Origin: Theionarchaea archaeon
GTDB lineage: Archaea > Methanobacteriota_B > Thermococci > Methanofastidiosales > SZ-28-30
Assembly: GCA_018992685.1 (NCBI GenBank)
Contig: JACVGT010000034.1
Coordinates: forward strand, 14,735 to 78,734
DNA length: 64,000 bases
Direction of reading: 5' to 3'
The translations under genes and the position numbers were made by a program. Below the pieces are notes generated by a model. It worked only from the letters and a program-made list of their open reading frames with translations, did no database searches and was not told the DNA's origin. This document shows positions 28,922 to 49,867 of this stretch, piece after piece (positions within the stretch are counted from its first letter, which is position 1; each line of letters starts with the position of its first letter).

Positions 28922-28982
28922 GGTTGTGGTTTTCACAGAAGAGATCGTTCTTGAGAGCTGGCAATAGTCTCGCGAAAAAAAG

Positions 28983-29075
28983 TGGACTGGGAGGGATTTG
29001 AACCCCCGGCCCCCTCCATTTTGGCTACCATTGATGTTGCCAAGGAGGTGCGCTTCCGAACTGCGCTACCAGCCC
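28983..29075 (-). tRNA. tRNA-Ala (GGC) with a 19-nt intron at the canonical 37/38 site
   Basis: The minus strand folds as a complete cloverleaf: acceptor GGGCTGG/CCAGTCC with the alanine identity pair G3:U70, U8, D stem GCGC/GCGC, anticodon stem CCTCC/GGAGG, 5-nt variable loop and T arm GGGGG-TTCAAAT-CCCTC. The loop between the anticodon stems is 26 nt in place of 7: TTGGCA, then a 19-nt intron (about 29019-29037), then one base. TTGGC can pair with GCCAA of the intron, as expected for a bulge-helix-bulge splice site. CCA is not encoded. A CTTTATATA box at 29099-29107 predicts a start about two bases before the mature 5' end. Confidence 0.92.
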
Positions 29076-46971: not shown

Positions 46972-47217
46972 ATGGATCCCTTATATGTTGTGAATCTGGT
47001 CCTCTGTATCATTATCGTGGCTCTCGGATACTGGGGTTCCAAGAAAAGTGGCGATTCAGTACCGCTCTACATTGGCATTGCCTTTGGACTTTTCGGTATA
47101 TCACATTTGTCAATCCTTTTGGGGCTGAAGGACACCCTCGAAACCCCTCTGATTATTGTCAGATTGTTGGCATACCTGGTAGTGATATTCGCCCTGTACA
47201 AAGTTGCCAAGAAATAA
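46972..47217 (+). CDS. Small integral membrane protein
   Basis: 81 residues with three hydrophobic helices (YVVNLVLCIIIVALGYWG, LYIGIAFGLFGISHLSILLG, IIVRLLAYLVVIFALY) and a Lys-rich end. I do not recognise it beyond its resemblance to many archaeal small membrane proteins. GAGGTTGAT precedes the ATG, and TTTATAAG at 46920-46927 is the probable promoter. A strong T tract (47221-47240) terminates it. Confidence 0.72.
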   Translation: MDPLYVVNLVLCIIIVALGYWGSKKSGDSVPLYIGIAFGLFGISHLSILLGLKDTLETPLIIVRLLAYLVVIFALYKVAKK

Positions 47218-47294: not shown

Positions 47295-48269
47295 TCATCC
47301 AACGACTGACGGATCTTTTCTCCAGTAGCATTGTACTAATGCATGTGCTTCACTCTGGATGATCTTTCTCTTGAGAAGGTCTCGAAGAAGCAGTGGAATG
47401 TGCAGCCTGTTGATGTCCTGCATCACATAGTCATCACTCTTCATGGAGCCCCTGTCCAGCCACACATCCATGAACAGGTTGTCTGAAACCCTGTAGAACC
47501 AGGTAGTGGTGGGTAGGTGAGAAAAGAGCTCAATGACGAAATCTTCATAGTCGGTCTCCACCATGAAGACATAGGGGTCGTATGCAGGGACAGTCTCGGG
47601 GAAGTAGCACGTGAAGATGGTGCAGCATTCAGGAAGGCGTTCCAGCCACTGGTACGCACTTCCACTCCAGATATTGTGTTTGGCCTTGACGATGGGCTCC
47701 AGTGGTTTCCTGAGATTGTATTTCAATTCTCTGAAGAGTATTTCATCCGTCTCATTCCATTCTATGGATTCTGACCAGTGTGTGTTGATGAGCCCCTGGG
47801 GTAAGTATGTCTCTGGATCAAAGGTGTCCACCATTTCCTGCATGGTCTTGATGGAGTGTTCCCACGAGTGGTCTGGAGCATATGAGATATAGTAGTCCGA
47901 ACGACGTCCTCCCACCACAACCCCATCCAGGTCAAGCTCTTTCAGAGAGATAATGCGCAGATTTGAAAACCCATCCATGAGGGTGTGGTAGACGACATCA
48001 CTGTCTTGAGTGTATGTGCGGAATAACCCGATGGGATCATCACTGCGAATAAAGTAGACATATTCTGCAAAACTCGAAAATGATCTCTTTCTGATCTGTG
48101 GCCCCACAATGTATCCTTTCTCAACTGCGTCTCTTAACCTGGCGCCTGCCGTATTACGGTTTATCCCTAATGCGCTGGCAGCGTCTTTAACCTTGACCCG
48201 GGGGGACCTGTCCAACAGCTGGTATATGATCCTGTATTCTCTTTTGAGGCGTTTTTCAGTGAACTTCAT
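47295..48269 (-). CDS. Lrp/AsnC-like HTH regulator with a large sensor domain, copy 1
   Basis: 324 residues. The N-terminal HTH (residues about 12-60) reads DRSPRVKVKDAASALGINRNTAGARLRDAVEKGYI, an AsnC/winged-helix type. The remaining 260 residues have no family that I can name; they begin with a strand-rich GPQIRKRSFSSFAEYVYFIRSD that recalls a RAM-like sensor. Outside the HTH and one 16-residue patch (EPIVKAKHNIWSGSAYQ) it is almost identical to copy 2 at 48803. The start is the ATG at 48269; a GTG at 48311 is an alternative. TTTTAAGG at 48364-48371 (minus strand) is the likely TATA box. Confidence 0.82.
   Translation of the reverse strand: MKFTEKRLKREYRIIYQLLDRSPRVKVKDAASALGINRNTAGARLRDAVEKGYIVGPQIRKRSFSSFAEYVYFIRSDDPIGLFRTYTQDSDVVYHTLMDGFSNLRIISLKELDLDGVVVGGRRSDYYISYAPDHSWEHSIKTMQEMVDTFDPETYLPQGLINTHWSESIEWNETDEILFRELKYNLRKPLEPIVKAKHNIWSGSAYQWLERLPECCTIFTCYFPETVPAYDPYVFMVETDYEDFVIELFSHLPTTTWFYRVSDNLFMDVWLDRGSMKSDDYVMQDINRLHIPLLLRDLLKRKIIQSEAHALVQCYWRKDPSVVG
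47314..48139. repeat. Long direct repeat, copy 1 (826 bp)
   Basis: Nearly identical to 48813-49635 (823 bp) over the whole length except for a diverged patch near 47647-47698 and single-base changes. The boundary is sharp at 48139, just inside the HTH-coding part. The second copy lies in the same orientation 1.5 kb away, with the peptide gene between them. Confidence 0.85.
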
Positions 48270-48566
48270 GTCTCTTACCTTTTCGATTTGCAAGATCCTC
48301 CAACCAGTCACACGTAGCTCTGGTTGAACAGAGATGCCTTTCCGAGGTGGGTTCTCGTTTCACCCTTAAAAGATTTTCTGCTTTCAAAGGGATCACTTGA
48401 GTCTTAGTCCAAGAAAAATTGCAGGAATCATTCATAGCTGCTTTAGATTCACTCGGGAGTCTCTAGATTCTGAAATCTTGAAGTATGGCCTGGTAAGGCT
48501 GAAAGCTTGCCTAGAAGAGTCGTGAAGCGACTTTACATTTCGGATTTGCCGTGTTTGATGGCAACA

Positions 48567-48574
48567 TTTTTAAA
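48567..48574 (+). promoter_or_regulatory. TATA box of the secreted peptide gene
   Basis: TTTTTAAA. The start site is predicted near 48597, leaving a 12-base leader that contains GAGGTGG before the ATG at 48609. The gap 48372-48566 shows nothing else. Confidence 0.6.
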
Positions 48575-48608
48575 GTAGGCATGAGAATTGAGTAACGAGG
48601 TGGAAGAG

Positions 48609-48800
48609 ATGAAAAAGATCTTGGTTCTCCTGCTCTTGGTAGGGGTTTTCATAGGAACCTCAGTGACGGCTGCTGAAGCTTGTGGAGACGTCTTCTCTGA
48701 CGACACTGAACCAGAAGATCCCGCACCAGGGAATGCAGCTCCTGATAACCCGCTGCCTCTTGGTGGAGGCGGTGGAAACGGTGGAGGCGCTCCAGGTTAG
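48609..48800 (+). CDS. Secreted Gly/Pro/Asp-rich peptide, 63 residues
   Basis: A signal sequence MKKILVLLLLVGVFIGTSVT is followed by AAEA (signal-peptidase site A-E-A) and a predicted mature peptide of 39 residues starting CGDVFSDDTEPEDPAPG and ending LPLGGGGGNGGGAPG. It has one Cys, at the mature N-terminus, and no known domain. The ATG has GAGGTGG at good spacing and a TATA box. Its stop is two bases from the stop of regulator copy 2, and the gene lies between the two regulator copies. It could be a signalling peptide, a RiPP precursor or a surface peptide. Confidence 0.7.
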   Translation: MKKILVLLLLVGVFIGTSVTAAEACGDVFSDDTEPEDPAPGNAAPDNPLPLGGGGGNGGGAPG

Positions 48801-48802
48801 AT

Positions 48803-49777
48803 TCATGTGAGGTCTTTTCTCCAGTAGCATTGTACTAATGCATGTGCTTCACTCTGGATGATCTCTCTTTTGAGCAGGTCTCGAACCAGCAGTGGAATGT
48901 GCAACCTGTTGATGTCCTGCATCACATAGTCATCACTCTTCATGGAGCCCCTGTCCAGCCACACATCCATGAACAGGGTGTCTGAAACCCTGTAGAACCA
49001 GGTAGTGGTGGGCAGGTGAGAAAAGAGCTCAATGACGAAATCTTCATAGTCGGTCTCCACCATGAAGACATAGGGGTCGTATGCAGGGACAGTCTCGGGG
49101 AAGTAGCACGTGAAGATGGTGCAGCATTCAGGAAGGCGTTCCAGCCAGCCACTGATGTCGCCTGCAGAAATATGATGGGCTTTCATGAGGGGAGTCAGTG
49201 GTTTCCTGAGATTGTATTTCAATTCTCTGAAGAGTATTTCATCCGTCTCACTCCATTCTACAGATTCTGACCAGTGCGTGTTGATGAGCCCCTGGGGTAA
49301 GTATGTCTCTGGATCAAAGGTGTCCACCATTTCCTGCATGGTCTTGATGGAGTGTTCCCACGAGTGGTCTGGAGCATATGAGATATAGTAGTCCGAACGG
49401 CGTCCTCCCACCACAACCCCATCCAGGTCAAGCTCTTTCAGAGAGATAATACGCAGATTTGAAAACCCATCCATGAGGGTGTGGTAGACGACATCACTGT
49501 CCTGAGTGTATGTGCGGAATAACCCGATGGGATCATCACTGCGAATAAAGTAGACATATTCTGCAAAACTCGAAAATGATCTCTTTCTGATCTGTGGCCC
49601 CACAATGTATCCTTTCTCAACTGCGTCTCTTAACCGTTTCCCTGCATTGCTTGGACGCAACTTCAGGAATCTGGAAAGGTATCTGACTTGTATTCGCGGA
49701 TTCTTGTCCAACGTGTTGAAGATTACTCTGACGTCTCTCTTCCGTTCTTCTGGAACATCCAGTATGTTCATCTCCAT
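48803..49777 (-). CDS. Lrp/AsnC-like HTH regulator with a large sensor domain, copy 2
   Basis: 324 residues, the same length as copy 1. The HTH half differs (DKNPRIQVRYLSRFLKLRPSNAGKRLRDAVEKGYI), as does one patch (TPLMKAHHISAGDISG). The remaining 245 or so residues differ from copy 1 only at scattered positions. Different DNA-reading heads on a shared sensor suggest one signal controlling two target sets. Starts at 49801 and 49771 are alternatives. TATA-like boxes TATTTATAAAG (near 49857) and GGTATTTATG (near 49835) precede it. Confidence 0.82.
   Translation of the reverse strand: MEMNILDVPEERKRDVRVIFNTLDKNPRIQVRYLSRFLKLRPSNAGKRLRDAVEKGYIVGPQIRKRSFSSFAEYVYFIRSDDPIGLFRTYTQDSDVVYHTLMDGFSNLRIISLKELDLDGVVVGGRRSDYYISYAPDHSWEHSIKTMQEMVDTFDPETYLPQGLINTHWSESVEWSETDEILFRELKYNLRKPLTPLMKAHHISAGDISGWLERLPECCTIFTCYFPETVPAYDPYVFMVETDYEDFVIELFSHLPTTTWFYRVSDTLFMDVWLDRGSMKSDDYVMQDINRLHIPLLVRDLLKREIIQSEAHALVQCYWRKDLT
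48813..49635. repeat. Long direct repeat, copy 2 (823 bp)
   Basis: Partner of 47314-48139. The length differs by three bases because of one codon in the diverged patch (near 49146-49194). Such sharp edges and high identity point to a recent duplication or ongoing gene conversion. Confidence 0.85.
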
Positions 49778-49867
49778 CTCCCGTCCTTTAAGATCCGCCA
49801 TCCCTGTACACAGCGAGATGCAACATTCAATGCTGCATAAATACCTTTTATTGGTTCTTTATAAATA

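Follow-up and report, generated by a model that had tools for sequence, protein, structure and literature searches.

Tandem Lrp/AsnC-like regulators and convergent secreted peptide genes: a candidate signalling module in Theionarchaea

Small leader-bearing genes that lie against or overlap the 3' end of a gene for a cytosolic regulator are known from the RRNPP systems of Firmicutes, Rgg-SHP and Alo, in which many paralogous pairs per genome occur together with orphan receptors and degenerate peptides. A survey that covered bacterial and archaeal genomes found Alo, with more than 25 paralogous pairs in a genome, almost exclusively in Paenibacillaceae (PMC7425212). Cell-cell signalling in archaea has been described for carboxyl-AHL quorum sensing, which differs in its chemistry from a peptide system, and the parts of a review of this subject that we draw on mention no archaeal peptide signal (PMC4187201). 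Two protein families resemble the regulators described below: the feast/famine proteins of the Lrp/AsnC type (PH0140, LrpA, AsnC), which consist of a single HTH-RAM unit of about 150 amino acids, and the siroheme decarboxylases NirDL/AhbAB, which have a tandem HTH-RAM-HTH-RAM layout. RAM domains classically bind amino acids.

The locus studied here lies in a stretch of 64,000 nucleotides (the window), which is part of contig C17 (78.7 kb) of the 3.03-Mb draft genome of a Theionarchaeon (G000), and was compared with the draft genome of a sister species (G001), the only other genome of the same genus in the comparison. It resembles the Rgg-SHP and Alo loci in gene layout and in the number and decay of paralogous pairs, but it is archaeal, its peptide combines a classical signal peptide with a Gly-rich tail, and its receptor is modelled as an alpha/beta RAM sandwich instead of a TPR protein. 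Because it has no TPRs and is a RAM protein, the regulator is not a member of the RRNPP family. Fold and sequence profile link it to Lrp/AsnC; here, however, two units are fused in 324 amino acids, about 20 paralogues occur in one genome, and secreted peptides are encoded tail-to-tail with them. The tandem layout is that of NirDL/AhbAB, yet identity is 10-12%, and the HTHs combine conservation with divergence from one paralogue to another, a pattern that DNA-binding proteins would be expected to show. The window neighbours inspected (DUF362/Fer4, DUF3788, methyltransferase, radical SAM) include no heme d1 or nir genes. The original prediction knew of no such archaeal arrangement, and the literature that we searched likewise held no precedent for an Lrp-peptide pairing or for archaeal peptide quorum sensing. 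The recurring stop-against-stop pairing of secreted peptides with this expanded regulator family offers a concrete candidate for an archaeal peptide signal, and its roughly ten loci, the peptide sequences and a putative operator could be tested in vitro without culture.

Two regulators and a secreted peptide gene

The open reading frames confirm two 324-residue regulators around a secreted peptide gene, an arrangement far beyond chance, and the predicted stop-to-stop position of the peptide gene is seen as a gap of 2 bp between its stop and that of copy 2 on the opposite strand (tail-to-tail).

46972..47217, + strand: small membrane protein of 81 amino acids, convergent to copy 1, DUF5985-like (below cut-off)
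47295..48269, - strand: copy 1 regulator, 324 amino acids from ATG, tandem Lrp/AsnC-like (wHTH1-RAM1-HTH2-RAM2; from ORF and AF2 model, folds nearest NirDL and Lrp/AsnC)
48560..48604, + strand: promoter-like BRE/TATA element GGCAACATTTTTAAAG (48560-48575) and ribosome-binding site (48597-48604) of the peptide gene, from sequence, with a like layout upstream of other peptide genes
48609..48800, + strand: secreted peptide of 63 amino acids with signal peptide, acidic/Pro-rich middle and tail GGGGGNGGGAPG (from ORF and ribosome-binding site; homologous peptides lie beside other family regulators)
48803..49777, - strand: copy 2 regulator, 324 amino acids from ATG, architecture as copy 1 (ORF)

The longest possible reading frames of copies 1 and 2 begin farther upstream, at 48311 and 49801, respectively. 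The peptide starts at an ATG with a good ribosome-binding site (GAGGTGGA). The gene for the DUF5985-like protein keeps its orthologous position in the sister genome (G001:C31), with a dN/dS of 0.12.

An AF2 model of the regulator, built on an alignment of 28 family members (pLDDT 90.6, pTM 0.88), places a helical wHTH1 at residues 5-50, a RAM-like alpha/beta domain at 54-148, a three-helix HTH2 at 173-215 and a second RAM-like domain at 216-317. An N-terminal wHTH followed by an alpha/beta RAM domain, as in Lrp/AsnC, is thus present in the model and in the profile and fold matches to the PDB: the top match among solved structures is NirDL (4ch7; Z 12.1 over 256 residues, 4.4 A), single-unit Lrp/AsnC proteins come next, and a sequence-profile search matched PH0140 at E 1.1e-6. 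Among curated models, HTH_24 came near its cut-off, HTH_AsnC-type matched weakly in 9 of the 28 members, NCBIfam Lrp models gave weak matches only, and no RAM-domain Pfam match was obtained in the regulator family. In this model two Lrp/AsnC units are joined in tandem as wHTH1-RAM1-HTH2-RAM2, and the domains of copy 1 compare with those of copy 2 as follows.

48120..48257, - strand: copy 1 wHTH1 (residues 5-50), 57% of residues differ from copy 2
47826..48110, - strand: copy 1 RAM1 (residues 54-148), 0% amino-acid and 1% nucleotide difference from copy 2
47625..47753, - strand: copy 1 HTH2 (residues 173-215), which holds the diverged patch
47319..47624, - strand: copy 1 RAM2 (residues 216-317), 3% amino-acid difference from copy 2

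Homogenised RAM domains and diverged DNA-binding heads

Direct repeats of 823 and 826 bp ending sharply in the HTH-coding end had been predicted, and are borne out by a near-identical tract that spans 47314-48139 in copy 1 (826 bp) and 48813-49635 in copy 2 (823 bp), and in which the copies differ at 15 positions outside the patch. Identity breaks off at 48140, within HTH1. The diverged patch, originally placed within the sensor, is reassigned by the AF2 model and the alignment to the recognition region of HTH2.

47314..47648, unstranded: conversion tract A on the copy 1 side, with 8 mismatches to copy 2 in 335 positions
47649..47699, unstranded: diverged patch, the HTH2 recognition region, 22 of 51 positions differ
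47700..48139, unstranded: conversion tract B on the copy 1 side, with 7 mismatches to copy 2 in 440 positions
48813..49635, unstranded: homogenised region, copy 2 counterpart, 823 bp

Synonymous divergence between the copies follows the same borders: it is high in HTH1 (dS 2.6, dN 0.56) and saturated in the patch, and very low in RAM1 (dS 0.04, dN 0) and RAM2 (dS 0.11, dN 0.02). Since dS is saturated in HTH1 and the patch and only 0.04-0.11 in the RAM domains, these values support homogenisation of RAM1 and RAM2 by gene conversion that spared HTH1 and HTH2, and not a recent duplication. A simple recent duplication with fast HTH divergence is ruled out by the saturated dS in HTH1 and the patch; positive selection after such a duplication would leave dS low throughout, which is not the case, and an HTH1 dN/dS of about 0.2 gives no indication of positive selection. 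Import of an HTH cassette from another paralogue was also considered; no donor was seen, and both HTH1s are about equidistant from all others compared. The HTHs are old and have been kept, and the RAM domains were overwritten in at least two tracts, apparently of different age. Of the predicted conversion that keeps a signal-reading domain and swaps the DNA-reading part, the first half stands, with low dS in the RAM domains and saturated dS in the HTHs, whereas the second does not, the HTHs having been retained.

The very high identity across 440 and 335 bp could also be produced by an assembly duplication that gave rise to copy 2. The chance of this is negligible, because synonymous divergence is saturated in HTH1 and in the patch of the same genes, because both copies lie on one contig with unique flanks, and because an independent homogenised pair is found in another assembly (G001:C55). 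The sequence content thereby contradicts the assembly duplication that had been named as a refutation of the original prediction.

The sister genome gives a relative date. G001:C31 carries the copy 1 orthologue in a matching neighbourhood (DUF362-ferredoxin, DUF3788 and DUF5985-like genes) that is cut by the contig end. Its RAM2 differs from both window copies at 17% of positions, and these differ from each other at 3%, whereas its HTH2 patch is nearest to copy 1 (21%) and copies 1 and 2 differ there at 45%. By these distances, homogenisation of the copies postdates the species split and did not include their HTH2 heads. A copy 2 orthologue was not reached in G001, as C31 ends inside the gene and searches with the contig-end DNA and the methyltransferase (best match 41%) yielded none.

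In a second tandem pair, G001:C55, most of RAM1 is free of differences, RAM2 is homogenised in part, and HTH1 and HTH2 both differ, which repeats the pattern of the window pair independently; sensor homogenisation, for which other genomes were to be checked, thus recurs in the sister genome. One extra residue and an IWSG motif in HTH2 are common to copy 1, G001:C31 and G001:C55b, across two different pairs. No peptide gene adjoins the homogenised G001:C55 pair, and sensor homogenisation therefore does not need a peptide. Whatever their ligand may be, the homogenised RAM domains and different HTHs lead us to expect that both window regulators sense the same one and target different DNA. The two tandem pairs provide a clean natural case of concerted evolution in a multidomain regulator, with homogenisation halting at each of the two DNA-binding heads.

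Recurrence and decay of the peptide-regulator pair

When the window peptide alone was searched in G001, three of its four matches (C102, C47 and C10) were convergent and directly against a family regulator, for which the chance probability is about 2e-10. Further pairs were found with a profile of eight peptides; as this profile was seeded with peptides next to regulators, the single-peptide search gives the unbiased figure. Intact pairs comprise window copy 2, G000:C14, G000:C6, G001:C102, G001:C47, G001:C127 and G001:C81. Three pairs are decayed: G000:C5 has a truncated regulator and a peptide that lacks its signal sequence, G001:C10 combines an intact peptide with a broken regulator, and G001:C123 is a remnant at a contig end. 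The stop-to-stop distance of the intact peptides is stereotyped, being +3 in the window, -3 in G000:C14, G001:C102, C47 and C127, and -43 in G000:C6, G001:C81 and C10. In the intact peptides, a signal peptide and a Gly-rich tail that mostly ends in PG enclose a variable middle, and orthologous peptides evolve under purifying selection (dN/dS 0.30, 0.28 and 0.11). The original prediction would have failed had the peptide been missing beside the regulators of close relatives; we found the opposite, recurrent pairs in both genomes. These observations support a recurrent partnership between the peptide and this regulator family, as opposed to chance proximity.

Full-length regulators with an intact peptide partner number about 3 of 19 in G000 and 4 of 13 in G001, and pair turnover between the two species is fast. 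In the regulator tree, peptide carriers fall into several subfamilies and imply six changes of peptide presence, at least four of them forced, a pattern that fits either an old unit lost several times or several gains. It might be argued that the genes have no functional link, that convergent small genes survive through duplication of the whole unit, and that homogenisation is neutral conversion between tandem copies; the conversion in the peptide-free G001:C55 pair, the HTH1 dN/dS without sign of positive selection and the number of presence changes in the tree would fit. We consider this very improbable, as the peptides are under purifying selection, the pairing is kept across regulator subfamilies that differ in about 75% of residues, and a promoter block is conserved (see below).

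The decayed copies at G000:C5, G001:C10 and G001:C123 and the rapid turnover between the two species could also point to a conflict module, in which a toxin- or bacteriocin-like peptide is paired with a regulator that acts as antidote or is linked to immunity, explaining turnover, decay and patchiness. This appears improbable: at G001:C10 an intact peptide stands beside a broken regulator, a state that a toxin-antidote pair should not tolerate, and no adjoining immunity or export genes were recognised.

A first genome scan for relatives gave no matches. None were found in 113 other genomes of the phylum, in IMG/VR, or among plasmids or phages, and in the GTDB r220 contigs relatives occur only in Theionarchaea SZ_28-30; the distribution of the module so far covers two genomes of one genus, both of them drafts. 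Two arrangements depart from the pair layout. An orphan member of the peptide family (dN/dS 0.11) lies between thioredoxin-reductase-like and cation-efflux-like genes, with no regulator beside it, at these positions:

G000:C3:170674-170862 (L062 1498-1689): orphan peptide-family member
G001:C98:5478-5666 (L065 1501-1692): orphan peptide-family member

From G000:C27:74793 onwards (L064 1501-1686 and 1732-2724), a secreted peptide ending in DDLPPGPIPL is convergent to a 330-residue protein, for which Pfam gave no match and hhalign no detectable relationship with the regulator family (probability 1.3%).

Candidate operators and the role of the peptide

All the peptide genes inspected carry a BRE/TATA-like promoter, located about 30-45 bp upstream, together with a strong GAGGTG-type ribosome-binding site. 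The promoters of the module-E peptides (G000:C6, G001:C81 and G001:C10) have in common a block beginning CACATGTTGGCAAA, which, with at most one mismatch, occurs at six sites in the two genomes taken together, four of them perfect and three of the perfect ones before peptides; a reversed control gave none. In G000:C6 the CACATGTTGGCAAA block runs into the palindrome GCAAACGTTTGC. The promoter region of regulator D (G000:C14 and G001:C127; L011 and L041) holds a perfect, conserved inverted repeat, GGATCGGTG-CTCGAAA-CACCGATCC, with a 7-nt spacer, which is a candidate autoregulatory operator of this regulator. No inverted repeats of at least 8 bp occur between copy 1 and the peptide in the window.

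We tentatively favour, at a little under even confidence, a module of regulator and secreted peptide that works like the Rgg-SHP pairs, with the peptide as signal and an unrelated receptor fold. The sequences show that the peptide genes are coding and that some members of an expanded tandem Lrp/AsnC-like family are inherited tail-to-tail with a small secreted peptide gene, whose promoter the adjacent regulator may control. The peptide would be exported by Sec and then trimmed, and it or its product could re-enter through an oligopeptide transporter of the Opp/Dpp type and bind the paired RAM domains, thereby altering DNA binding. Six SBP_bac_5 oligopeptide-binding proteins are encoded in the genome, which says little, such proteins being common. 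Both window regulators would then respond to a single ligand and control separate sets of operators, and conversion between the tandem copies would hold both sensors tuned to one signal. The full form of this idea, archaeal cell-cell signalling by peptides on tandem Lrp/AsnC receptors, with several parallel pairs per genome and conversion that ties one signal to two regulons, is possible though more doubtful.

Several observations speak against the peptide as signal. Its Gly-rich tail is nearly constant, while in known pheromones it is the recognised part that varies, and here the variable middle would have to carry specificity. Few regulators have an intact partner, an orphan peptide exists, the G000:C27 peptide lies beside an unrelated protein, and the G001:C55 pair is homogenised with no adjoining peptide. 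The peptide might instead be the output, the regulator being a local switch for an exported peptide with a surface, antimicrobial or matrix function and the RAM domains sensing a metabolite such as an amino acid. The RAM fold and the Lrp-family profile matches, several of them to amino-acid-bound structures, the conserved putative operator before peptides, the orphan peptide and the tail, which fits a product better than a specific signal, all agree with this alternative, which we regard as a real possibility, held with clearly less than even confidence. It leaves the stop-against-stop 3' position unexplained, however, as repressor-target pairs would commonly be divergent and share a promoter.

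Two minor observations concern other sites. The fourth perfect CACATGTTGGCAAA copy lies in G001:C81 (L113 132-145), is followed by the palindrome GTTTACATAAGTAAAC and is upstream of a short reading frame (225-422); it is possibly a further target of regulator E. In the window, at 28982-29075 on the - strand, ARAGORN calls a tRNA-Val(aac) with a G3:U70 pair in the acceptor stem and an anticodon loop that fits a tRNA-Ala(GGC) with a 19-nt intron; the call is likely a mis-call of an intron-containing tRNA.
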